From Actinomycetospora lutea (GTDB lineage Bacteria; Actinomycetota; Actinomycetes; Mycobacteriales; Pseudonocardiaceae): DNA of 64,000 bases. Position numbers and translations under genes: made by a program. Position 1 is the stretch's first letter; every line of letters starts with the position of its first letter. Of this stretch, positions 7,051 through 23,705 are shown one piece after another. Where the stretch lies: NCBI RefSeq assembly GCF_028737205.1, contig NZ_JAQZAL010000015.1:62001-126000 (forward strand). Reading direction: 5' to 3'. The notes beneath the pieces are model-generated. The model was not told the origin of the DNA. It searched no databases and was given only the letters and a program-made list of their open reading frames with translations.

Positions 7051-9714
7051 ATGCCGGAGGTCTGGCCGCTGGTCGGTCGCTCCGCCACGCTGTCCTCGAT
7101 CGTCCATCTCGCCCAGACCCGGCAGGGCGCAGGGGTCATGCTCGTTGGTCCACCCGGCGTCGGACGGACCCGCCTGGCCCTCACGACGCTGGCCGCGGTC
7201 GTCACCACGGACAGTGCCCGGTGGTCGCCCGTCTGGGTGATGGCGAGCCGCTCCACCCAGGACATCCCCCTGGGGGCGATGAGCCATCTCCTGCCCCGGA
7301 TGGACACGGCGCCCGACGGCGAGGCGGCGCTGACCGGCCACCTGCTGCACGAGGCCCGGCTCGCCCTGCGCCCGGAGCCCGGCGCGGGTCAGCTCATCCT
7401 CGCCGTGGACGACGCCCACGTCCTCGACACGACGTCGGCGGTGCTGCTCCAGCAGCTCGCCGTCTCCGGGGACGCCTTCCTCGTCGTCACCGCGCCGGCG
7501 GGCCTCACCCTCCCGGACCCGATCTTCGCCCTCTGGAAGGAGGGGCTGATCGACCGTCTCGACATCCGGGAGTTCGACCGCGCCCAGAGCGACCAGCTGG
7601 TCGCCCGGGCGCTCGGCGGGCACGTGGACGGGGCGGCCCTCCAGCGACTGTGGCGGTACTCCCTGGGCAACGCGCTCTTCCTGCGCGAGCTCGTCGACGG
7701 CGCGCGCGAGAACGGCACGCTGCGCCAGACCGGCGCGGTGTGGCGCTGGGAGGGCGAGTTCGCGCCGTCGTCGCGGCTGGTGGAGATGGTCGAGGCGCGG
7801 ATGGGCTCGCTGGCGGCGCCCGAGCGGGACCTGCTGCGTCTCCTCGCCTTCGGCCAGCCGCTGGGCAGCGAGGTCGCGGCCGAGCTCGTCTCGCCGTCGG
7901 TGCTCGCGACGCTGGAGCGCCGGGAGCTGGTCGAGTCGGTCCGTGAGGGACGGCGGGTCAACGTCCGCCTCAAGCACCCGCTCTACGCCGAGATCCTGCG
8001 CCAGCAGGCCACCCCGCTGCAGGAGCGGCAGGCCTACCACCGCCTCACCCGGGCCATGGAGGCCCACGGCACCCGGCGGGGCGAGGACCGCAGCCGCCTG
8101 CTCGGGTTCCGTGTCGGCCAGGGCGAGGAGGCCGACGCCCGCGAGCTGCTCGCGGCCGCCCGGGACGCGGCCGCCGCCGACGCGGGGCTCGCCGACCAGC
8201 TGCTGCGCGCCGCCGCGGACTCGGGCGGCACCGTCGACGTGCGCCACCAGCTGGCCCGCGCCCTCGTCGCCGCCGACCGCTTCGACGAGGCCGAGGCGGT
8301 GCTGGCCGAGGTCGCCACGCGTCCGGAGATGGCCTCGGCCCCGCCCGACCAGCTCGTGGCCTCGGCGCTGATCCGCGTGCCGAACGCCTACTGGGGCCTG
8401 CACGACGTCGTCGGGACCCGCGACGTCCTGCACGCACTCGACCGCACGATCCCCGCCGGCTCCGCCCCGGAGGGCCGGGCGTGGCTGCGCGCGGTGCTGG
8501 CGCTGCTCGACGGCCAGCCCCGTGCGGCGCTCGAACGCCTCGACCCGCTGATCGCCGACACCCCCGAGGACCCCGGGCGCCAGGAGATCCACGTCGCCGC
8601 CCTCTCGGTCGCCGCGTTCGCGAGCGCCCGGGCCGGCGCCCTGGAGCGCGCCCGCGACCTCGTCGCGCGCGGCCTGCCGATGATCGAGCGCGACGGCGAC
8701 CCGAGCGGCGGCTGGCTGCGCTTCCAGTTCCTCACGGCGTCCTGGTACGCCGACCTGCAGGCGGGCGAGCTGGACCGCGCCGAGAAGCTCGCCCGCGACT
8801 GCTACGCCGAGGCGCTGGCCCAGGGTCTGCGCACGCCCATGGCCATCTACGCCACGTGGCAGGGGATCGTGGCGGCGCGCCGGGGCCGGGTCCGGACCGC
8901 CGCCCGGTGGCTGCGCGAGGCGGCGGCGGCCGTGTCCGCGTCACGCTTCTGCTTCGCCGTGCCGCTGGCCGGTGAGCTGTCGATGGTCCTGGCCGCGTCC
9001 GGCGAGACCACCGAGGCGCGCACGGTGCTCGCCACCGCTGACGACGTGCCCGGCGGGGGCCTGTTCGCCGGGTGGCAGACCGCCGCCAACGTGTGGCTCC
9101 TCGGCGTCGAGGGCCGGGTGTCGGCCGCGACGGAGGCGGCGATCGCCGCGGTGGCCGCCTCCGAGGACCCGGGGCACCTGGTGCAGACCCTGCACACCGT
9201 CGTCCGCGTGCGGGCCATCGGCGTGGTGGCCGACGAGCTCGAGGTGCTGGCCGCCGACCTCGACGGCGCGTGGCCCGCCCTGGTCGTCGACCACGCCCGG
9301 GGGCTCAGTGCGCGCGACGGCACCGCCCTCGACCGGGTCGCCGCGCGCTGCGAGCAGCTCGGGTCGCTCCTGCTCGCCGCCGAGGTCGCGGCCCAGGCCT
9401 CCGCCGTGCACCGCTCGGACGGCAGCACCACGGCCGCGCGGGCGTCGGCGGCGCGGGCGCGCGCCTGGGCCCAGGAGTGCGAGGACGCGCGGACCCCGGC
9501 GCTCGGGCTCCTCGAGGCGTCGACGGAGCTGACGCGCCGCGAGCTGGAGATCGCCTCGCTGGCGGCCACCGGCCTGACCAGCAGGGCGATCGCCGAGCAG
9601 CTGGTCGTGTCGGTGCGCACCGTCGACAACGTGCTCCGCGCGGTCTACGCGAAGCTCGGCGTGTCCGGGCGCGGGGAGCTCTCGCAGGTCGCCGGGCTGC
9701 ACGTCGCCCGCTGA
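7051..9714 (+). CDS. LuxR/MalT-type (LAL) ATPase transcriptional regulator
   Basis: 887 residues from the ATG at 7051, which has GAGGGG eight bases upstream; an ATG at 6907 in the same frame lacks support. The N-terminus has a STAND/AAA-like ATPase: Walker A GPPGVGRT (33-40), where the usual Lys is Arg39, and Walker B LILAVDDAH (Asp120-Asp121). A long helical TPR-like middle follows. The C-terminus has a LuxR helix-turn-helix (LTRRELEIASLAATGLTSRA onward, about 825-880). This is the architecture of MalT and of mycobacterial IniR, the activator encoded beside iniBAC. Its gene converges on the Hsp70/dynamin cluster with an 11-nt gap, so I infer that it controls that cluster. Confidence 0.9.
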   Translation: MPEVWPLVGRSATLSSIVHLAQTRQGAGVMLVGPPGVGRTRLALTTLAAVVTTDSARWSPVWVMASRSTQDIPLGAMSHLLPRMDTAPDGEAALTGHLLHEARLALRPEPGAGQLILAVDDAHVLDTTSAVLLQQLAVSGDAFLVVTAPAGLTLPDPIFALWKEGLIDRLDIREFDRAQSDQLVARALGGHVDGAALQRLWRYSLGNALFLRELVDGARENGTLRQTGAVWRWEGEFAPSSRLVEMVEARMGSLAAPERDLLRLLAFGQPLGSEVAAELVSPSVLATLERRELVESVREGRRVNVRLKHPLYAEILRQQATPLQERQAYHRLTRAMEAHGTRRGEDRSRLLGFRVGQGEEADARELLAAARDAAAADAGLADQLLRAAADSGGTVDVRHQLARALVAADRFDEAEAVLAEVATRPEMASAPPDQLVASALIRVPNAYWGLHDVVGTRDVLHALDRTIPAGSAPEGRAWLRAVLALLDGQPRAALERLDPLIADTPEDPGRQEIHVAALSVAAFASARAGALERARDLVARGLPMIERDGDPSGGWLRFQFLTASWYADLQAGELDRAEKLARDCYAEALAQGLRTPMAIYATWQGIVAARRGRVRTAARWLREAAAAVSASRFCFAVPLAGELSMVLAASGETTEARTVLATADDVPGGGLFAGWQTAANVWLLGVEGRVSAATEAAIAAVAASEDPGHLVQTLHTVVRVRAIGVVADELEVLAADLDGAWPALVVDHARGLSARDGTALDRVAARCEQLGSLLLAAEVAAQASAVHRSDGSTTAARASAARARAWAQECEDARTPALGLLEASTELTRRELEIASLAATGLTSRAIAEQLVVSVRTVDNVLRAVYAKLGVSGRGELSQVAGLHVAR

Positions 9715-9725
9715 GCCCGGAGAGG

Positions 9726-11516
<1,791 letters not shown>

Positions 11517-11597: not shown

Positions 11598-12560
11598 CTA
11601 CACCGCGAGTTCGCTCGCATCGGGCGGGTCGTTACCGGCGTCATGGTCGCCGAGCCCGGGGTCCGGCCCGGGGACGGTGTCCCCCGGCAGATCGTGGTCG
11701 GGGGCTCCGGCGGGCGCGTCGAGGACGTCGGGCTGGTGGTCGGGCTGGTGGTCGGACCGCTCGGGGAGCCGCCCGTCGAGCCCGTCGTCGACCGGCAGCG
11801 GGGTGCCGGACACCGGCGTCCCGGGGGCCGCGAGCCCGACCGGGGGCGTCCACCCGGGGGTGCCGGCGTCGTCCGGTGGCGCGGCTCCGTCGCCCAGCCC
11901 GCTGTCGGGAGCGGGCTCGCTGATCCCGTTGACGCTGCGGTCGTAGCTCACGGTGTCGACGGAGAAGCTGCCGTCCGCGTTCTCGACCACGTGCACCTGG
12001 CCGCGCTCGTGGATGAGCAGGTCGGTCTCGCTGGCCGGGGGCTCGGGCACCGCGGCGTGGTGGTGCTCCTTGAAGACGTAGTGCTGGCCCGCGTCGTCGG
12101 AGATGATCAGGTACTGGAAGGCGTCGACGTTGTACGTCGCCCCGGCGCCCTCGTTGACCACGACGTCCTGGTACATCTCGACGGTCAGCCAGTCGTCGCC
12201 GACGCCCTGCGGGTCGAGCACGCGGAACGACTCGGCGAGCGCCGGCGCCTCGCCGCCGGGCGGGACGTCTCCGGTCGTGTGGGCCACAGGCGCCACCGCG
12301 GCCGTGGTGGTGGCGCTGGTCGCCCCGGGCTCCGACGCGGCGGCGTCCACCTGGGTGCCGACGGCGATCGCCATCCCCAGCCCCGCGCCGGCCTTCGCGG
12401 CCCGCCGGGCGACCTCGCGGATGTGCGCCGGCGCCTCCGCGCCGTTCTCCTCGGCACTGCGCAGCCAGTCGGGGATCACCCCGCGCACGTCGCGCTTCGC
12501 GGCCTCCCAGAGATGCGCCGGCATCCCGGGCGGCACGGCGCTGGGTGCCCGCACGGTCAT
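11598..12560 (-). CDS. Unknown protein of the dynamin/Hsp70 locus, Asp/Pro/His-rich tail
   Basis: I do not recognise this 320-residue protein. The start is probably the ATG at 12560 (MTVRAPSAVPPG), placing the dyad box 35 nt upstream. An in-frame start at 12650 would read through that box. Visible parts are a helical N-terminus (10-60, AHLWEAAKRDVRGVIPDWL), an Ala/Gly-rich stretch (about 65-90) that is too polar for a clear membrane span, a beta-rich middle with WLTVEMYQDVVV and HYVFKEHHH, and an acidic Pro/Asp/His-rich tail (about 210-320). It has no cysteines. Position and shared box tie it to the Hsp70 and dynamin genes. Confidence 0.65.
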   Translation of the reverse strand: MTVRAPSAVPPGMPAHLWEAAKRDVRGVIPDWLRSAEENGAEAPAHIREVARRAAKAGAGLGMAIAVGTQVDAAASEPGATSATTTAAVAPVAHTTGDVPPGGEAPALAESFRVLDPQGVGDDWLTVEMYQDVVVNEGAGATYNVDAFQYLIISDDAGQHYVFKEHHHAAVPEPPASETDLLIHERGQVHVVENADGSFSVDTVSYDRSVNGISEPAPDSGLGDGAAPPDDAGTPGWTPPVGLAAPGTPVSGTPLPVDDGLDGRLPERSDHQPDHQPDVLDAPAGAPDHDLPGDTVPGPDPGLGDHDAGNDPPDASELAV

Positions 12561-12594
12561 GGCACGAGTCTCGGTGGGGCCGGACCGGGGGTCA

Positions 12595-12611
12595 TGAGCA
12601 ACCACTACTCG
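12595..12611. promoter_or_regulatory. Dyad box A (TGAGCAA-N3-CTACTCG)
   Basis: A 17-bp imperfect dyad with 7-bp arms and a 3-nt spacer, preceded by CA. It lies 35 nt upstream of the start at 12560, in the 93-nt gap behind the second dynamin gene. The same pattern recurs at 16328-16344, 18004-18021 and, more widely spaced, 18093-18128. Confidence 0.7.
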
Positions 12612-12653
12612 GTTTCCGGTGCGGGCCGGCGACGGCTTGCTCATGGCCAAGGG

Positions 12654-14366
12654 TCACCACGAACCGAGCGCGCCCACGAGCAGGCCCTCGCAGGTGCGCA
12701 CCAGGACCCGCGCGGCCTGGCGGACGTCGCGCGCGGACGCGGGGTGCTCGGCGCGGCGCTGCCACTGGGCGAGCGCCGCGCGCGCCACCCGCTGCATCTC
12801 GCTCGCGGGGGTGTCGGGCTCGACCCCGAGCCGCTGCCAGACCTCGACCCCGCCGCCGCCCAGCAGGCGCTCCGCGGACTCCCGCTCGGTGTCGGTGAGC
12901 ATGAGGGAGCCGACGCGGATGCCGTCGAGGAGGCGGACCTCCGCGAACTCGTGGGCCCCCGAGGTGACGATCTCGAGATCGTGCAGGAGGTGCTGGGCCG
13001 CGGGCACCGGGTAGCGCCGGATGGTCGCCTCGACGGCGAGCAGCGCCGACCGGGCCTTGAGCACCTCGGCCCGCCCGGCGAAGCGGCTCAGCAGCGCCTC
13101 GCGCAGGGGCTGCAGCCCGCTGCGGGTGAGCAGCTCGCGCGACAGCGCGCCCGCGGTGCCGGCGACGCCGGTGTAGCGCAGGCGCACCGAGAGCCGGATG
13201 CCGAACAGGCCGAAGCGGTCGAGGAGGGCCGCGCGCCGCGCGGGCGACAGGTCGAGGTCGGGCATCTCGCGGTTCGCGAAGCGGTCGGCGGTCAGCAGCA
13301 TCTGCTCGACGTCGTCCTCGGGCGCCTCGGCGAGGCGCTCGATGGCCCGGAACTCGTCCTCGCGCAGGGTGGCGGCGGTCGACGCGAGGAGGCCCGCCAC
13401 CGGGATGACCGTCTGGCACAGCGCCTGCACGCGGGGGTCGACGCGGTAGCGCTCGGCGACGCGCGCGGCGCTCTCGAGGGCCTCGGGGCGTCCGTGGCCG
13501 ACCTCGTCCGCGCGGGCCAGCACGCCGAGGGTGTTGATCGGCCGGCGCTCGGTGGGGTCGTCCCGGAAGGTCTCGAGGAACCGGACGTCGGACGTGTGGA
13601 TGTGGCGCATCAGGTAGACGACCGCGTCGGCGGCGCTCGGGCCGCCGCCCTGCTCGGTGAGCGCGGACTCGGTGCGCCGGGAGAGCTCGGTGGTCAGCGA
13701 GTCCATGCCCGGGGTGTCGATCAGGGTCATCGTCTTCAGCGCGGGCGAGGGCCAGTCGACGACCAGGCGTTCCACGTCCTGCGCGCGCATCCCGCCCAGG
13801 TCGCTGTCCAGCAGCCCCCCGGACGGTCCGGGCGGCAGCTGGCGCGGCGGGCCCTGCCGCGGGTGGGCCATCACCCGGTAGGTGTGGCCGTCGCGGTACC
13901 AGGTGACCACGCGCGTGCACTCGCCCGCGTCGGTGGCGGCGAGCTCCTGGCCGACCAGGGCGTTGAGCAGCGTCGACTTCCCCGACTTGATCCGGCCGGC
14001 GATCGCCACCCGCAGGGGCTCCTCGAGGCGGGCCGCCGCCGCCTGCAGACCTGGCTGGGCGGGGCCGCCCGCGTAGATGTCCATCGCCTGCTGGACGAGG
14101 CCCCGCACGCGGGGCAGCAGCGTGGCCGGGGGTGGCGCGGCCGGTCGTCCGGGCGGCGGGAAGGGCCCCGACGGCGGGAAGGGGCCCGACGGCGGGAAGC
14201 CGTGCGCCGGGCCGGCGGGACCCGGCGGTCCGAGGGGCCCCGGCCGGCCGCCGGGGCCGCCGGGGCGTCCGGGTCCTGCCGGGCCGCCGGGGCCCGGGGG
14301 ATGTCCCGGGCTCCGCGACGGCGGCGCCCCGTACGGCCCGGGGCGGGGACGGTCACCGGGGCTCAT
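12654..14366 (-). CDS. Dynamin-like GTPase, IniC-like, with Pro/Gly-rich N-terminus
   Basis: 570 residues. The ATG overlaps the stop of the upstream dynamin gene (ATGA), so the two are coupled. Residues 1-82 are a Pro/Gly-rich disordered region with two GPFPPS-type repeats. The GTPase domain has G1 GRIKSGKS (124-131), a G2 Thr near 151 and G3 DTPG (217-220). G4 is not a clear [NT]KxD: LARAD appears where LTKTD would be, so base specificity may be changed. The rest is helical, as expected for a bacterial dynamin stalk. In mycobacteria IniA and IniC are such a tandem pair, and IniA remodels membranes. Confidence 0.88.
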   Translation of the reverse strand: MSPGDRPRPGPYGAPPSRSPGHPPGPGGPAGPGRPGGPGGRPGPLGPPGPAGPAHGFPPSGPFPPSGPFPPPGRPAAPPPATLLPRVRGLVQQAMDIYAGGPAQPGLQAAAARLEEPLRVAIAGRIKSGKSTLLNALVGQELAATDAGECTRVVTWYRDGHTYRVMAHPRQGPPRQLPPGPSGGLLDSDLGGMRAQDVERLVVDWPSPALKTMTLIDTPGMDSLTTELSRRTESALTEQGGGPSAADAVVYLMRHIHTSDVRFLETFRDDPTERRPINTLGVLARADEVGHGRPEALESAARVAERYRVDPRVQALCQTVIPVAGLLASTAATLREDEFRAIERLAEAPEDDVEQMLLTADRFANREMPDLDLSPARRAALLDRFGLFGIRLSVRLRYTGVAGTAGALSRELLTRSGLQPLREALLSRFAGRAEVLKARSALLAVEATIRRYPVPAAQHLLHDLEIVTSGAHEFAEVRLLDGIRVGSLMLTDTERESAERLLGGGGVEVWQRLGVEPDTPASEMQRVARAALAQWQRRAEHPASARDVRQAARVLVRTCEGLLVGALGSW

Positions 14367-16270
14367 GTCACGGCCTTCGCGGGAGGGGCTGCGGCCGGCG
14401 TCGCCGCACCGGCCGACAGCCCCGACGCGCGGGTGCGCTCGAGGTGCGCGGACAGGTCCTCCACGCGCGCCTTGAGGCTCGCGAGGGACTGGAGGTCGGT
14501 CTCGGCGCGCGACCGGGCGCCGCTGTCGGACTCGCTGCTCTTGGCGGCCTCCTGGGCCGCGGCGAGCGCCTCCGTCGACGAGCGCTGGAGCTCGGTCACC
14601 CGCTGCGACCAGGCGTTGCGCAGCTCGCGCTGCACGTGCCGGATCGCGTCCCGCGAGTCCTTGCCGAAGTGCATGTTGAACTCGTCCACGAACCGGCGCA
14701 CCGCGTTCTTCGCTTCGGAGCGGCGCTTCTCGAGGGCGCGCTTCTGCTCCTCCTTCCACCCCATCCGGCCGAGCAGCAGGCCCGGGACGACGCCCAGCGC
14801 CAACGGCACCGGCAGCCCCGTCAGCGACATCAGCATGTTGAACATGAGGAACCCGCTGTAGGACTTCTGGAACGCGGCCATCCCGGCGCCCTTGGCCTTC
14901 TTCTCGGCGAAGCCGGCGTCGGCCCGGAGCCCGTCGAGCAGCTCGACGGGCGCCGCGACCTCGCGGGCGCGCACCACCTGCGACTCGGCGATGTCGAAGT
15001 GCTGGCCGACCGCGATGGCGACCTCCTTCGCCCGGTTCACGAACATGGCGTAGTTCTCCAGCGCCTCCCCGGCCAGCCGCTGCCGGAGCCAGGCCTCGAA
15101 CTCCTCCCAGTTCTTCGCGGGATCGCCCTCGTCGATCGACTTCTCGGCCTCGTGGACCACGATCCGCGTGCGTTGCCGGAGGTCGAAGTCGACGTCGGAC
15201 GAGATGTCGGCGAACCCGTCCTGCAGCACCGACTGCCACTTGGACGAGCGCTCGCGCAACGCGTCGGCCTGCTCCTTGGCGCGCGTGAGCTCGCTGACGA
15301 GCGCGGCCGACCGCTGCGGGTCGGCCAGGGCCGCGAGGCGGGCGCGCGCCACGACCTCCATCTGTTCCACGGCGGAGTGCACGTGCGTGATCGCCGCGTC
15401 GAGGGCGAGCTTCTCGCCGCCGGCGACGACCTCGTTGAGACTCGCGATCAGGGCGGGGAAGCCGGACTCGTTGTTGAGGTCCTTGCTCATCGTGCTGGCC
15501 GCCAGCGAGCGCACCTCCGACGACACCGCGAGCGAGTCGATCTCGATCCCCGCCCGCTGCAGGTGCTGCCGATCGCGCTCGAGCATGCGGGCCGAGTTCG
15601 GGTACAGGTCGGTCTTGGTCAGCACGAACAGGACCGTCGGGCACAGCTCCTTCACGGTCCGCAGGAACGACACCTCGCTCTCCGTGAGCTCCTGCGAGCA
15701 GTCACTGACGAAGAGCACCGCGTGCGAGCGGGGCAGGGAGCTGATCGTCGAGGCGTTCGAGCCGGATCCGATCCCGCCCACGCCGGGGGTGTCCACCAGG
15801 ACGAGGCCGCTGGACAGGATCGGGCGGTCGAGCCCGACGGTCACGCGGCGGACGTTGCGGCTGTTGCCGGGATTGCCGAACTCGGAGGCGTACTGCGGGA
15901 CGTCCGACGGGGCGATCGTCTCGTTCCACCCGGCGCCCGACGCGCCGGCGGTCGGTTCGAAGACCGCGCTCGCGGACAGGGTCTTGGCGTAGCGCACCTC
16001 GGTCAGCACCGCGGTGGCCACGTCGTCGTCGACCGGGCAGATGGGCGCGGTGAGCAGCGCGTTGATCAGCGAGCTCTTGCCCTGCTTGAACTCGCCGACG
16101 ACGTGGACCGTGATCGACCCGTCGCTCAGGATCTGCTTGGCGCCCCGGAGCCGGGCGACGAGGTCCTCGCGCTCGTAGGCCTGTGCGCCCTTGATCGCCA
16201 TGTCGATCGTCTCGGCGGCGTGGCGCGCAGCGGCGCTCTGCGTCTTCTGTTGCTGCTGCTGGACCGCCAT
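14363..16270 (-). CDS. Dynamin-like GTPase, IniA-like, with membrane-inserting segment
   Basis: 635 residues. G1 is GEFKQGKSS (59-67), G3 is DTPG (160-163) and G4 is TKTD (218-221), all intact, so it should bind and hydrolyse GTP. Long helices (285-470) form the stalk. A hydrophobic hairpin at 474-501 (FLMFNMLMSLTGLPVPLALG) is where bacterial dynamins insert into membrane. The N-terminus has a run of five glutamines. The start is the ATG at 16270, with GGGAG five bases away. It heads a two-gene operon with the second dynamin, and a perfect dyad box lies 56-76 nt upstream. Likely role: membrane maintenance under envelope stress. Confidence 0.92.
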   Translation of the reverse strand: MAVQQQQQKTQSAAARHAAETIDMAIKGAQAYEREDLVARLRGAKQILSDGSITVHVVGEFKQGKSSLINALLTAPICPVDDDVATAVLTEVRYAKTLSASAVFEPTAGASGAGWNETIAPSDVPQYASEFGNPGNSRNVRRVTVGLDRPILSSGLVLVDTPGVGGIGSGSNASTISSLPRSHAVLFVSDCSQELTESEVSFLRTVKELCPTVLFVLTKTDLYPNSARMLERDRQHLQRAGIEIDSLAVSSEVRSLAASTMSKDLNNESGFPALIASLNEVVAGGEKLALDAAITHVHSAVEQMEVVARARLAALADPQRSAALVSELTRAKEQADALRERSSKWQSVLQDGFADISSDVDFDLRQRTRIVVHEAEKSIDEGDPAKNWEEFEAWLRQRLAGEALENYAMFVNRAKEVAIAVGQHFDIAESQVVRAREVAAPVELLDGLRADAGFAEKKAKGAGMAAFQKSYSGFLMFNMLMSLTGLPVPLALGVVPGLLLGRMGWKEEQKRALEKRRSEAKNAVRRFVDEFNMHFGKDSRDAIRHVQRELRNAWSQRVTELQRSSTEALAAAQEAAKSSESDSGARSRAETDLQSLASLKARVEDLSAHLERTRASGLSAGAATPAAAPPAKAVT

Positions 16271-16325
16271 GCCCTCTCCCGTCCCCTGTCCCGGGCGCCA
16301 GCCTCCGCCGCTGGGACGTGATCGT

Positions 16326-16346
16326 CATGAGTAGCGACTACTCATG
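16326..16346. promoter_or_regulatory. Dyad box B, perfect palindrome upstream of the dynamin operon
   Basis: Arms CATGAGTAG and CTACTCATG are perfect 9-bp inverted repeats around CGA. This is the best copy of the locus-specific box, ending 56 nt before the ATG of the first dynamin gene. The size and symmetry suit a dimeric helix-turn-helix regulator. Confidence 0.8.
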
Positions 16347-16450
16347 TCTGTCGGTGGGTCGTGCCGACGCGCGGGGACCCGCGCGCACGACGGTCCGGCA
16401 CGGTCGCGATGACCGTGCCGGACCGTCGGTGCCGGGCCCCCGGAGGTGGA

Positions 16451-17914
16451 TCAGCCGTCGGCCGCGTCCGACCCGCCGCCGCTGTCCGACCCGCCGCCGC
16501 TGTCCGAACCGCCGCCGTCGTTGCCGCCGCCGCTCGACTCGAAGCCGCCTCCACCGGACTCGAACCCGCCGTCGTCGAACCCGCCCCCCGAGTCGCTGCC
16601 GCCGCCGGCGCCGACGGTCTCGAGGACCGGCTGCTCCTGCTGCTGCTCCTCGACGCCGCCCGACCTGCTCGCCGGCTCCTCGACCGGCTCCTCGGTGGAC
16701 GAGCCGCTGTCGCCGCCGTTGCCGTTGCCGTGGAAGACCAGGCCGCCGTCGGTCGACTGCGGCTCGAGCTCCGACTCGCCGACGGGGGTCTCGGCGGGGA
16801 ACGGCTGGGTCTCCAGCGTCTCCTCCGCCACGGGGATGGTCTCGCCACCGGCGCCCTCCGGCGGGGTGGTCTCACCGCCCGTGCCCTCGGGCGGGGTGGT
16901 CTCGCCACCCGAGGCCTCGGGCGGGGTGGTCTCGCCACCGGTGCCCTCGGGCGGGGTGGTCTCGCCACCGGTGCCCTCCGGCGGAGTGGTCTCACCGCCC
17001 GTGCCCTCGGGCGGGGTGGTCTCACCGCCCGTGCCCTCCGGCGGAGTGGTCGCGCCACCGGTGCCCTCCGGCGGAGTGGTCTCACCGCCCGTGCCCTCCG
17101 GCGGAGTGGTCTCACCACCCGTGCCCTCCGGCGGGGTCTCCGGGGGGAGGCCCGGCGTCGGCGTGGGGTTGCCCTCCTCGTCGATCGGCGGGAGCGGCGG
17201 GACGACCGGGGGCGGCACGGGGCTCGGGTGGGGGTGGGTCTGGTACCACTCCTCGGGGTCCGGGCAGTGCGGCGGCCGCGGGGCGTCCGGGCAGTAGTCC
17301 GGGTTGTAGCCCTCGGGGCAGTGCACCGGGTGGTAGCAGCCCGGGTTGTAGTGCGGGTGCCAGCAGTAGGGGTTCTCGACCGGGTGGAAGCCCCAGGGGT
17401 TGTGGACCTCGTGGTAGCAGTGCGGGTTCCACACCGGGTCGTACTCGTACGGGTCGCCGTAGTGGCCCGACGGCTCGAGGTTGTCGTACAGGTACCCGCA
17501 GTCGGGCGGGCAGTACGTCGCGTGCATCGGGCAGTTGTAGTCCCGGGGCAGACAGCCCTGTTCGACGTAGGTGGCGCAGCTGTCGTACGGCGGGCAGTCG
17601 GGCTTGATGTCGCCGGTGCCGGGCGGGTAGGGCTGCTGGTTCCACCCGCCGTCGGGGTCGGTCCCGTCGGTGCCGTCCGTGCCGTCGGTCCCGTCCGTGC
17701 CGTCGGTGCCGCCCGTGCCGTCGGTGCCCCCGGTCCCGTCCGGGGCGTTGGGGTCCGGCGCGTTCGGGTCCGGGGCGTTGGGGTCCGGGGTGGTGGGGGC
17801 GGGCGCCGGGGCGGTCCCGGTGCCACCGGTGGCCGCCGGCGCGGGGGCGATGTCGCTCGCCGGGTCGCCCGACGGCTGCATCGGGACGTTCGCGGGGTTC
17901 GCGGGGATGGTCAT
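16451..17914 (-). CDS. Low-complexity protein with Cys/His/Tyr/Trp-rich core and GTGGETTPPE repeat
   Basis: 487 residues. The ATG at 17914 is preceded by GGAAGGAG. No signal peptide is visible. Order: Pro/Ala lead (1-45), DPNAP repeats (44-59), GTD repeats (60-87), then a core (90-230) with 12 Cys and 13 His plus many Tyr, Trp and Pro, built on short units such as NPHCYHEVH, NPYCWHPHY and NPGCYHPVH. Next come ten copies of GTGGETTPPE (264-363) and an acidic Gly/Ser-rich tail. I know no family with this core; it looks able to bind metal or crosslink. Its place before the dynamin genes is that of iniB in mycobacteria, also a low-complexity protein, but I see no sequence match. Confidence 0.8.
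   Translation of the reverse strand: MTIPANPANVPMQPSGDPASDIAPAPAATGGTGTAPAPAPTTPDPNAPDPNAPDPNAPDGTGGTDGTGGTDGTDGTDGTDGTDGTDPDGGWNQQPYPPGTGDIKPDCPPYDSCATYVEQGCLPRDYNCPMHATYCPPDCGYLYDNLEPSGHYGDPYEYDPVWNPHCYHEVHNPWGFHPVENPYCWHPHYNPGCYHPVHCPEGYNPDYCPDAPRPPHCPDPEEWYQTHPHPSPVPPPVVPPLPPIDEEGNPTPTPGLPPETPPEGTGGETTPPEGTGGETTPPEGTGGATTPPEGTGGETTPPEGTGGETTPPEGTGGETTPPEGTGGETTPPEASGGETTPPEGTGGETTPPEGAGGETIPVAEETLETQPFPAETPVGESELEPQSTDGGLVFHGNGNGGDSGSSTEEPVEEPASRSGGVEEQQQEQPVLETVGAGGGSDSGGGFDDGGFESGGGGFESSGGGNDGGGSDSGGGSDSGGGSDAADG
16826..17125. repeat. 30-bp tandem repeat, ten units, coding
   Basis: Ten in-frame 30-bp units encode GTGGETTPPE, two of them diverged at the first two residues (ASGG, GAGG) and one with Glu to Ala. 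Variation is mostly synonymous. Such a repeat can expand or contract by recombination without shifting frame. Confidence 0.9.
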
Positions 17915-18003
17915 GTCGGTCTCCTTCCGTTCCGGGAGGACCGGTGTGCCGGCCCGCTGTCTCGGTCTGGGCACAAGACTGCTGGCGCCGGGAGACCCCG
18001 TCA

Positions 18004-18052
18004 TGAGCAGCGCACTACTCGATGCCCACCGGGGTTGCTCGGGGATTACTCG
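18004..18052. promoter_or_regulatory. Dyad box C with two additional half-sites
   Basis: TGAGCAG-CGCA-CTACTCG at 18004-18021 is the same dyad with a 4-nt spacer, 90 nt upstream of the Cys/His-rich gene. Two more half-sites of the CTACTCG type follow in the same orientation: TTGCTCG (18035-18041) and TTACTCG (18046-18052). Confidence 0.65.
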
Positions 18053-18092
18053 GTCCGCCGGGGCGGACGCCCACCGATGCGGGTCGAGGACA

Positions 18093-18128
18093 TGAGTAGC
18101 GGGTCACAGCGCGGGCCCGCACTACTCG
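18093..18128. promoter_or_regulatory. Dyad box D, widely spaced
   Basis: TGAGTAG (18093-18099, again preceded by CA) and CTACTCG (18122-18128) are separated by 22 nt, one or two helical turns more than in boxes A-C. Together with box C this makes the promoter of the Cys/His-rich gene the richest in half-sites. Confidence 0.55.
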
Positions 18129-18192: not shown

Positions 18193-19344
18193 TCAGCGGG
18201 GTCGGTGACCCCGGCCCGCCACGTCGATCTCGCCGGTGTCCCCGGCGTCGGAGGCGGCGGATCCGCCCTCGGACGGCGCGGCATCGAGCTCGTCCACGGC
18301 CTCCGCCGAGGGGGTCTCCTTGGCGTGGATGACGAACCACGCGACCCAGCCCGCGACGGCGACCCCGACGAAGCTGACCAGGCGGTAGAGCAGCACCGCC
18401 GCGAGGGCGGGACGGGAGGGGACACCGCCGGCGACCAGCGCGGCGAGCAATGCGCCGTCGACGAGCCCGAGACCGCCGGGCAGGAACGCGGCGCTCGAGG
18501 CGGCGGTGGCGGCGGCGTAGGCGACGAGCACCAGCGCGAGCGTCATGCCCCGGGCGCCGACGGCGACGCAGCAGGCCGCGAGGCACGTGATGTCGAGGAT
18601 CCAGTTCGCGAGCGCCGAGGTGCCGACGACGAGGCGGCCCCTGCCGCGCAGCTCGATGAACTGGAGCGCGGCGATCTGCTCGGCGAGCTCGGCGACGCCG
18701 TCCTCGCGGGGCCGGCGGCGCACCCGGTTGACCAGTCGCAGCCCCCACGACCCGGCCGTGACGAGCAGGCCCGGCCGCTTCGCGACCACGATCACGCCGG
18801 CGCCCAGCGCGGCGACGCCGACGATCTGGAAGATCATCCAGGGCAGCGAGGTCGGGCGGCCGCCGACCACGAGCGCCGACCCGAGCGCGATCGCGGCGAG
18901 CGCGAGGCTGGCCGCCACCCCGCCGGCGACCATCGTCCACGTCGTCGCGGGCCCGGTCGCGCCCCAGGCGCGGCGCCGCCTGTAGGTGTAGGCCGTCGAC
19001 AGCGCGGCACCGCCGGGCACGGTGAGGTGCAGGGCGTTGGCCGCGAGCGTGGCCATCGTGACGGCGCCGAGCGAGACCCGGACGGCCGCGGCCACGAGCA
19101 GGCGGTGGTGCAGCAGGGAGAACGCGACCAGCGCGCCGGCCTCGCACGCGACGGCGACCGCGACCCACATCGGGTCGGCCCCGATCAGCGCCGCGCCGGC
19201 GTCCTTGACCGTCGGCCACACGATGACGATGCCGGTGGTGATCGCGGCCGCCACCACGAGCGCGGTGAGGATCCGCAGGACCCTGCGGGTGCGTGGGGAG
19301 GCGCCCGCCAGTCCCGCCGGTGCGGAGGTCACGGTCGCGCTCAC
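18193..19344 (-). CDS. UPF0104 / MprF-type flippase-domain membrane protein
   Basis: 383 residues with about seven to eight membrane helices beginning at residue 22. It belongs to the lysylphosphatidylglycerol synthetase transmembrane family (PF03706), shown by AALHLTVPGGAALS-like and FLPGGLGLVDGALL motifs. There is no synthase (GNAT-like) domain, so it is the membrane part alone. Related proteins move lipids or glycolipids across the membrane, but the substrate here is unknown. The tail (345-383) is acidic and cytoplasmic. It lies downstream, on the same strand, of two inverted repeats at 19380-19441 that may regulate it. Confidence 0.82.
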   Translation of the reverse strand: MSATVTSAPAGLAGASPRTRRVLRILTALVVAAAITTGIVIVWPTVKDAGAALIGADPMWVAVAVACEAGALVAFSLLHHRLLVAAAVRVSLGAVTMATLAANALHLTVPGGAALSTAYTYRRRRAWGATGPATTWTMVAGGVAASLALAAIALGSALVVGGRPTSLPWMIFQIVGVAALGAGVIVVAKRPGLLVTAGSWGLRLVNRVRRRPREDGVAELAEQIAALQFIELRGRGRLVVGTSALANWILDITCLAACCVAVGARGMTLALVLVAYAAATAASSAAFLPGGLGLVDGALLAALVAGGVPSRPALAAVLLYRLVSFVGVAVAGWVAWFVIHAKETPSAEAVDELDAAPSEGGSAASDAGDTGEIDVAGRGHRPR

Positions 19345-23058: not shown

Positions 23059-23098
23059 GTGAGCGAAATTCCCGGCTATAGCCGGGAATTTCGCTCAC
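23059..23098. terminator. Perfect 40-bp palindrome, bidirectional terminator
   Basis: Two 20-base arms with no loop, starting GTGAGCGAAATTCCCGG on either strand. CC/GG pairs extend it beyond one mismatch. It sits between convergent genes (aldehyde dehydrogenase and Lrp), and the Lrp stop codon lies inside it. There is no T-run, which is usual for actinobacterial terminators. Confidence 0.8.
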
Positions 23099-23565
23099 GT
23101 GGAGGCCCGGCGCGACATGAGCGGGTCGAGGCGGAACGGGACGAGCTGGCGCATCACGAGCGCCGTGGAGGTCCGCTCGACACCCGGGACGGCGAGCAGG
23201 CTGCCGGCGATCGTGTAGAGCGCGTCGGCGTCGCTCGCGACGACCTGGACGAGCAGGTCGTCGTCGCCCGCGAGCCCCACCACCTCGACCACCTCGGGGA
23301 TGCCGGCGAGCGCCTCGGTGACCTCGGCGAGCCGGCGCTGGTCGACCCGCGTGGTGACGTAGGCGCGCAGCGGGTGGCCGAGCGCGGCCGGGTCGATGCG
23401 CCGGGCGAAGTCGCCGAGGACGCCCCGGCTCTCGAGCCGGGTCAGGCGCGCCTGGACGGTGTTGCGCGCGAGGCCGAGACGCTCGGCGAGCGCGACGACC
23501 GTGGCCCGCGGTTCCTCGGCGAGGGCCTGGAGCAGGCGCGCGTCGACGGCGTCGACGGGTTCCAT
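23095..23565 (-). CDS. Lrp/AsnC-family transcriptional regulator
   Basis: 156 residues. I chose the ATG at 23565 because GGGGAG lies eight bases upstream; the GTG at 23574 has the Shine-Dalgarno run directly against it. An N-terminal helix-turn-helix (AVDARLLQALAEEPRATVVA, then LARNTVQARLTRLESRGVL) precedes the RAM ligand-binding domain (about 65-145). Such proteins sense amino acids. It is divergent from the thiamine-diphosphate enzyme gene with 140 nt between them, and is therefore its likely regulator. Its stop codon is within the palindrome 23059-23098. Confidence 0.9.
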   Translation of the reverse strand: MEPVDAVDARLLQALAEEPRATVVALAERLGLARNTVQARLTRLESRGVLGDFARRIDPAALGHPLRAYVTTRVDQRRLAEVTEALAGIPEVVEVVGLAGDDDLLVQVVASDADALYTIAGSLLAVPGVERTSTALVMRQLVPFRLDPLMSRRAST

Positions 23566-23705
23566 CCTGCTCACTCCCCGGGGCCGACGGCACGGACGCG
23601 CTGACCATAGTGCTCACGCCCGTCGACCCCGCTTGCGCAGTTCGGGCCCATGACGAACGCTTCTGGCACCGAAGTGGACACGGCCGTGGACCCGGAGGCA
23701 GATCG

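Follow-up and report, generated by a model that had tools for sequence, protein, structure and literature searches.

The ini operon of mycobacteria is drug-inducible, responding to cell-wall drugs, and MalT, a STAND ATPase with a LuxR-type DNA-binding domain, activates promoters through several sites. In the sections of Boot et al. (2017, PMC5760070) used here, IniR is described as the activator dedicated to iniBAC and combines three domains, an ATPase, a MalT-like and a LuxR-like DNA-binding one; it was bound upstream of iniBAC in chromatin immunoprecipitation followed by sequencing, and a dnaK-like gene adjoins iniR in M. smegmatis. IniA is presented as a membrane-fission dynamin in the part used of PMC6715688. 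According to excerpts of PMC6099782, the promoter PTTMP of the LAL regulator TpdR in Rhodococcus jostii TMP1 carries two 15-nt direct repeats whose starts are 28 nt apart and, at its -35 region, 7-nt inverted repeats separated by 4 nt, and its activity is abolished by losing the distal direct repeat; two of the sites of MalT in Escherichia coli are in direct repeat. Here we analyzed 64,000 nucleotides of Actinomycetospora lutea (contig NZ_JAQZAL010000015.1, positions 62,001 to 126,000; hereafter the window), which hold a locus of the ini type (IniA/IniC dynamins, Hsp70 and a LuxR-type STAND regulator) and a recurring inverted-repeat box at its promoters.

The locus resembles IniR-iniBAC in having a probably dedicated STAND-LuxR regulator beside IniA/IniC, a dnaK-like gene (in several species) and a single-locus regulon. 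It differs in that its regulator belongs to another LAL subfamily, its operator is another one and no IniB was found; a Cys/His-rich protein and a protein that we call 'Unk' are present in the window, and this genome has three boxed promoters. With TpdR-PTTMP, as far as those excerpts go, it shares a LAL regulator and inverted repeats at -35 plus a distal repeat, a likeness of layout in which the repeat sequences were not compared; the genes, the inducer (tetramethylpyrazine) and the single promoter region of that system are different. Unlike the MalT sites in direct repeat, the promoter-proximal pair is inverted in the window. The literature searched contained no report of a named IniR motif, of iniBAC in Actinomycetospora or of the strings CTACTCATGAC and CCCCTAATCCCC, and we found no operator named there for the mycobacterial ini operon.

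We conclude that the box probably serves a dedicated activator as its operator in a membrane-stress locus of the ini type, and that the neighboring LuxR-type STAND/LAL protein is the most likely to read it. That the operator and its regulon are dedicated and confined to a single locus is strongly supported. The positions, conservation, spacing and specificity of the box were observed directly, and its elements in the window, with predicted promoters, are as follows:

12595..12611, minus strand: box of the Unk + Hsp70 unit, CGAGTAG-TGG-TTGCTCA on the coding strand, kept in 3/3 close relatives
12567..12595, minus strand: predicted promoter of the Unk + Hsp70 unit, -35-like ATGACC (12595-12590), 17-bp spacer, -10-like GAGACT (12572-12567)
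12637..12643, minus strand: distal same-direction half-site TGAGCAA, 32 bp upstream of the left arm of the Unk/Hsp70 box
16328..16344, minus strand: box of the iniA-iniC unit, TGAGTAG-TCG-CTACTCA, within a 21-bp palindrome (16326-16346)
16300..16328, minus strand: predicted promoter of the iniA-iniC unit, -35-like ATGACG (16328-16323), 17 bp, -10-like GAGGCT (16305-16300)
18004..18021, minus strand: box of the Cys/His unit, CGAGTAG-TGCG-CTGCTCA
17976..18004, minus strand: predicted promoter of the Cys/His unit, -35-like ATGACG (18004-17999), 17 bp, -10-like CAGTCT (17981-17976)
18035..18052, minus strand: two distal same-direction half-sites, CGAGTAA (18052-18046) and CGAGCAA (18041-18035), 31 and 20 bp upstream of the left arm of the Cys/His box
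18093..18128, minus strand: accessory upstream pair at the Cys/His gene, CGAGTAG-N22-CTACTCA

The pattern of the original prediction, TGAGYAR-N3/4-CTACTCR, occurs in the 64-kb window at 12595-12611, 16328-16344 (palindromic, found on both strands) and 18004-18021, compared with a mean of 0.00 in shuffles (n = 100). The stretch CATGAGTAGCGACTACTCATG at 16326-16346 is a perfect palindrome over 21 bp, and TGAGTAG-N22-CTACTCG sits at 18093-18128. Pairs of arms at any spacing up to 40 bp were limited to the three N3/4 sites and the N22 pair, and Markov shuffles gave 0 (n = 60, plus strand). Across the assembly (6,531,507 bases, 106 contigs, 96.3% complete), a scan in which the right arm could begin with Y instead of C returned the three window sites only; no fourth N3/4 site was found in the 6.53 Mb. 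The same three places are kept in 3/3 close relatives (genomes G215, G206 and G214). All four elements reported in the original prediction lie where it had put them, its statement that the 64 kb hold no further paired copy is borne out at any spacing up to 40 bp, and the units it had defined, [Unk + Hsp70], [iniA-iniC] and [Cys/His], have one promoter box apiece. Its wording that a box marks every promoter fits the three N3/4 sites and fails for the N22 pair; the elements are real, and their informative direction is that of the minus strand, running into a -35/-10 pair. It had named boxes at many unrelated promoters as what would speak against it, and the count of three sites in this genome is in its favor.

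Read towards the gene, the consensus element is NGAGTAG-N3/4-YTRCTC followed, mostly without a gap, by ATGACn-N17-nAnnnT, the box thus abutting a -35-like hexamer. A palindrome scan of a 20-kb slice of the window and 20 relative loci (391,048 bases) gave 23 matches with at most two mismatches versus 0 in the reversed control, and 31 versus 1 with at most three. At 36 sites, in whose discovery the -10 had played no part, a -10-like nAnnnT was located 17 bp from the -35 hexamer in 31 cases (12/16 orthology groups) and 18 bp in four more; spacers of 10-16 and 20-24 bp were absent, 19 bp occurred in one and 25 bp in two. The frequency of ATGAC itself (TGAC in 27/36) is partly circular, because this motif was built into the later weight matrix. 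The predicted promoter positions would correspond to a class II-type placement, in which the site touches the -35 and keeps a constant distance to the -10. The N22 pair retains its exact 22-bp spacing in the window and in 3/3 close relatives, though the intervening stretch has diverged, and a -10 at 17 or 18 bp behind it is missing from all four of these genomes; the pair is therefore an extra upstream pair at the Cys/His gene and not a promoter.

A third half-site accompanies many boxes. Distal same-direction GAGYA was found 30-33 bp upstream at 30/50 sites (13/22 orthology groups) and 20-22 bp upstream at 7/50 (5 groups), two of which have another copy at 31 bp. One site has it at 29 bp and two at 43 or 45 bp. 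Distances of 23-28 and 34-42 bp are not represented among the 50 sites, and other distances (8, 13, 17, 49, 54 bp and beyond) have one or a few copies each. Steps of ~10.5 bp suggest that the protein contacts one face of the DNA.

These features are consistent with a mechanism in which the inverted pair immediately upstream of the -35, its arms spaced by one helical turn (10-11 bp), would hold two LuxR protomers. An additional protomer would sit on the half-site of the same direction, some two, three or four turns farther upstream, with contacts on one DNA face. The activator would then touch RNA polymerase at the -35 (class II). Since the -35 (ATGAC) and -10 (nAnnnT) match the consensus poorly, transcription should depend on the activator. 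Activation rather than repression, like the number of protomers, is what we infer from this layout. In this genome the cluster is divided into three transcription units with an operator each, so that a single regulator could induce all of them (dynamins, Hsp70 unit and Cys/His protein) at once; by analogy with IniR/iniBAC, cell-envelope stress may be the trigger. This amounts to a base-resolved operator and predicted promoter architecture for a putatively dedicated LuxR-type STAND regulator at a non-mycobacterial ini-type locus. Two questions thereby become testable: which signal a regulator of this type perceives, and for what reason bacterial dynamins are induced jointly with an Hsp70.

We then asked how specific the box is across genomes. 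Across the order, the loose pattern of the original prediction matched 36/200 genomes, and its reversed control matched more (judged by eye). As this is background level, the regulon claim holds for the refined element, and the 7+7 pattern alone was rejected as a marker beyond close relatives, its reversed control being no rarer. The strict pattern, GAGTAS-N3/4-BTRCTCATGAC, yielded 27 sites in 12 of the 18 genus genomes and 65 sites (hand count from the listing) in 46 of 390 family genomes, with 0 in both reversed controls. All 27 genus sites fall at ini loci, at two unlinked Cys/His paralogues or, in G213, beside an LPG gene on a 4-kb contig. The surroundings of 39 sites in 37 stretches were examined, comprising 37 of the 38 extra-genus sites and two genus sites (the remaining extra-genus site, in G188, was already covered): 32 lie near an ini gene, LuxR, Cys/His paralogue or LPG gene, one (L350) has no recognized neighbor and six are unlinked. 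A -10 at 17 or 18 bp is present at 33/33 sites (the 32 linked ones and L350, a short contig with its -10 at 18 bp that was kept among them) versus 0/6 unlinked sites. Overall, 58/65 strict sites are linked to ini loci, LuxR relatives, Cys/His paralogues or the LPG gene.

By hand count, a linked strict site occurs in 16/80 genomes of Amycolatopsis and 11/62 of Pseudonocardia, and most genomes of the wider genera have none. Boxes with a -10 were also found at two unlinked Cys/His paralogues (L114:9597 in G200:C20 and L351:5687 in G211:C16); they lie on other contigs, which means that the regulon extends beyond the locus in those two genomes. The compact regulon proposed originally is supported by the assembly scan, the strict-pattern scans of genus and family and the window pair scan; the box is specific in its own genome, and across the order the loose form of it is not. 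With its specificity, the strict element can be used to find the regulon in related genomes. Three further matches (L148, L160 and L196) were set aside: L196 overlaps the MSTDYS start of a helix-turn-helix gene, and L148 and L160 are identical to it in sequence.

The genes of the locus and two of its neighbors are:

7051..9714, plus strand: LuxR-type STAND/LAL regulator of 887 aa, AAA_16 and C-terminal GerE helix-turn-helix (Pfam), candidate binder of the box
9726..11516, minus strand: Hsp70 (DnaK-like; Pfam HSP70)
11598..12560, minus strand: 'Unk', first gene of the Hsp70 unit, without Pfam match
12654..14366, minus strand: IniC-like dynamin (Dynamin_N)
14363..16270, minus strand: IniA-like dynamin (Dynamin_N)
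16451..17914, minus strand: Cys/His-rich repeat protein, in place of mycobacterial iniB, without Pfam match
18193-19344: LPG_synthase_TM membrane gene preceding the Cys/His gene, its place kept in several relatives
23095-23574: Lrp/AsnC-like regulator gene (label by eye), ~5 kb from the Cys/His gene

The regulator passes the Pfam cut-offs for PF13191 and PF00196 and thus has the LAL (MalT-like STAND-LuxR) architecture. To relate the box to it, 79 named ini loci were surveyed with thresholds of >100 bits for a LuxR match and >13 bits for the box. A LuxR match was present in 19/79 loci, and all 19 had the box; 55 of the 60 loci without LuxR match had none. The reversed control gave 6 matches in 1.37 Mb, and the match at L285 was judged weak. 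Ten of the 19 loci with both came from genomes already used; the nine new ones (8 Amycolatopsis and Pseudonocardia endophytica) all have LuxR, box and a -10 at 17 bp. The LuxR gene occurs in 20/20 box loci examined, from three genera.

Boxes also adjoin LuxR relatives without a nearby iniA in four genomes, and this is stronger support than co-occurrence at ini loci. In G207 a box lies ~28 bp after the LuxR gene. In G397, from another genus of the family, a strict box (L337:5286) lies ~40 bp before the LuxR match and points away from it, with GACCAT as its -10 at 18 bp and no iniA in 11 kb. The other two are from other families: in G191 (L218:11080-11133) the box overlaps the LuxR stop, before a gene starting MNAIRKPKTLVICCDGTWQKP (DUF2235-like by eye), and in G004 (L193:9264-11250) it precedes a kinase-like gene (by eye), then LuxR. 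In a tree of 32 LuxR relatives, 12 ini-locus proteins and that of G207 form one supported clade, G004 and G397 another supported pair, and G191 stands apart. The original choice of the LuxR/MalT-type protein as candidate binder gains indirect support from these genomic associations. Most other LuxR relatives were scanned for boxes within 1.5 kb. The recognition helix works only partly as a marker of box-linked LuxR proteins, G191 breaking the rule.

Several observations weigh against this assignment or the specificity behind it. Five of the 60 LuxR-less ini loci still match the box (three on 4-9 kb contigs, one Acidimicrobiia contig and one weak match). The ini loci with box and LuxR are those with the highest IniA identity (at least 51%) and belong largely to one lineage, so that their co-occurrence does not represent many independent events. 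Two LuxR relatives inside the supported clade (G216:C22 and G215:C2) lack a box in ~20 kb, and the G191 protein has a different recognition helix (RTVEGH) and tree neighbors without a box within 1.5 kb. The window LuxR gene has no box of its own, and its Walker A motif, GPPGVGRT, carries an arginine instead of the usual lysine, which could weaken ATP binding. The window iniA box has no distal half-site, and 7/8 Amycolatopsis sites have GAGYA only at 55 bp (by eye, there is a weaker one near 32). Six of the 65 strict sites (in G168, G325, one of two in G332, G339, G341 and G399) are unlinked; they were set aside as background, having no ini or LuxR neighbors and, as said above, no -10. Of the 19 genus sites of the looser original pattern (hand count), G212:C1:527529 has no visible link to ini genes. 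Finally, clustering of shared genes at the 20 loci (predicted genes of at least 90 aa within ~20 kb) showed the Lrp/AsnC-like gene (by eye) to be the next shared regulator, near 7/20 box loci, all Actinomycetospora, which makes reading by LuxR slightly less likely.

This last observation bears on the alternative that the box is the operator of another regulator, either a small dimeric protein with its gene elsewhere or the product of the nearby Lrp/AsnC-like gene, with LuxR a mere neighbor. Many small dimeric regulators, too, would fit inverted half-sites of 7 bp spaced by 3-4 bp, and the window LuxR gene stands at the distant edge of the cluster in convergent orientation to Hsp70. However, no Lrp-like gene was found at the Amycolatopsis and Pseudonocardia box loci (~20 kb each), boxes adjoin LuxR relatives away from iniA, and a helically phased third half-site placed upstream of a poor -35 fits a multi-protomer activator better than a simple repressor. 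We regard another regulator as unlikely.

It is far less probable that the locus is the iniBAC operon with its IniR and that the box is the IniR operator. The gene set and neighborhood are the same (IniA, IniC, Hsp70 and a STAND-LuxR protein), and IniR, of the same three-part architecture, binds upstream of iniBAC (PMC5760070, sections cited above). In the mycobacterial ini loci examined, the neighbors are similar to those of the window, with a STAND-LuxR gene and, in most, an Hsp70 gene. The IniA-type and IniC-type dynamins have 36-38% and 39-44% identity to their mycobacterial-locus counterparts and are adjacent in the same order; with STAND-LuxR and Hsp70 genes in the neighborhood, the locus qualifies as ini-type. 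Yet the window LuxR scores at most 38 bits against seven mycobacterial IniR proteins, five of them aligning over ~55 residues of the helix-turn-helix and none full length, versus 169-370 bits, mostly full length, against 14 box-less LAL proteins, and we reject it as an IniR orthologue. A search of seven mycobacterial IniB and one IniB* against eight window proteins (blastp) found no IniB (best E 0.13), and no iniB with a conserved N-terminus (such as LLDWxLDLF) stands as first gene in the window.

Nor do the mycobacterial iniB promoters carry the same box: another repeat, CCCTAAYCCCCTA, is common to 13/13 aligned, and CCCCTAA is absent from the window. The 14-base form CCCCTAANCCCCTA was found at iniB in 13/14 mycobacterial genomes (places matched by hand), with 20 matches in total versus 8 in the reversed control. 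This repeat is a candidate IniR operator. At these mycobacterial loci (L177, L180, L181 and L197-L207), the iniB promoters also have a CCCCG(A/T)TT stretch and a CCATA -10 region, and ATCCCCTAA occurs also between Hsp70 and iniB* in five aligned loci.

The notion that the motif is the promoter of an alternative (ECF-type) sigma factor without activator site, to which the fixed distance of the right arm and ATGAC from the -10 in nearly all sites would lend itself, is hardly credible, because an inverted pair (3 or 4 bp spacer) with a movable half-site at ~21, 32 or 43 bp is unlike sigma recognition and a -35/-10 with a 17-bp spacer fits the housekeeping sigma factor.

With the box taken as operator of the LuxR-type protein, we somewhat favor the view that the dynamin-Hsp70 core is an old actinobacterial membrane-remodeling module whose dedicated STAND-LuxR sensor was exchanged one or more times. 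Mycobacteria would use IniR and CCCCTAA repeats, and Actinomycetospora, like some Amycolatopsis and Pseudonocardia, would use a non-orthologous LAL protein and a GAGTAG operator of three parts. If so, core and response would have stayed unchanged while signal and operator were replaced at every promoter together.

Some minor features were also noted. Between the -10 GAGACT of the Unk gene and its start codon, ATG here and GTG in two relatives, lie the bases CGTGCC (window 12558-12572), and the gene is predicted to be leaderless, with +1 at 12560, the A of its ATG. The Walker A arginine is common to several LuxR relatives, lysine being present in Amycolatopsis, A. endophytica and G208. In the Cys/His protein, Cys/His/Tyr/Pro repeats form one block and repeats of the GTGGETTPPE type form a run, and relatives often have other repeat proteins at its position. 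Five genus genomes (L122-L126) have second-type ini loci (IniA ~42%) without this LuxR and without the box. On the Acidimicrobiia contig (L260:8396-8422), a perfect TGAGTAGTCCCTACTCA lies between Hsp70 and iniA, with no LuxR match on the contig and no -10 at the expected place. A tandem pair of ini loci, both boxed, was found at L111 (G203:C11), the LuxR match of the first being split in two pieces.

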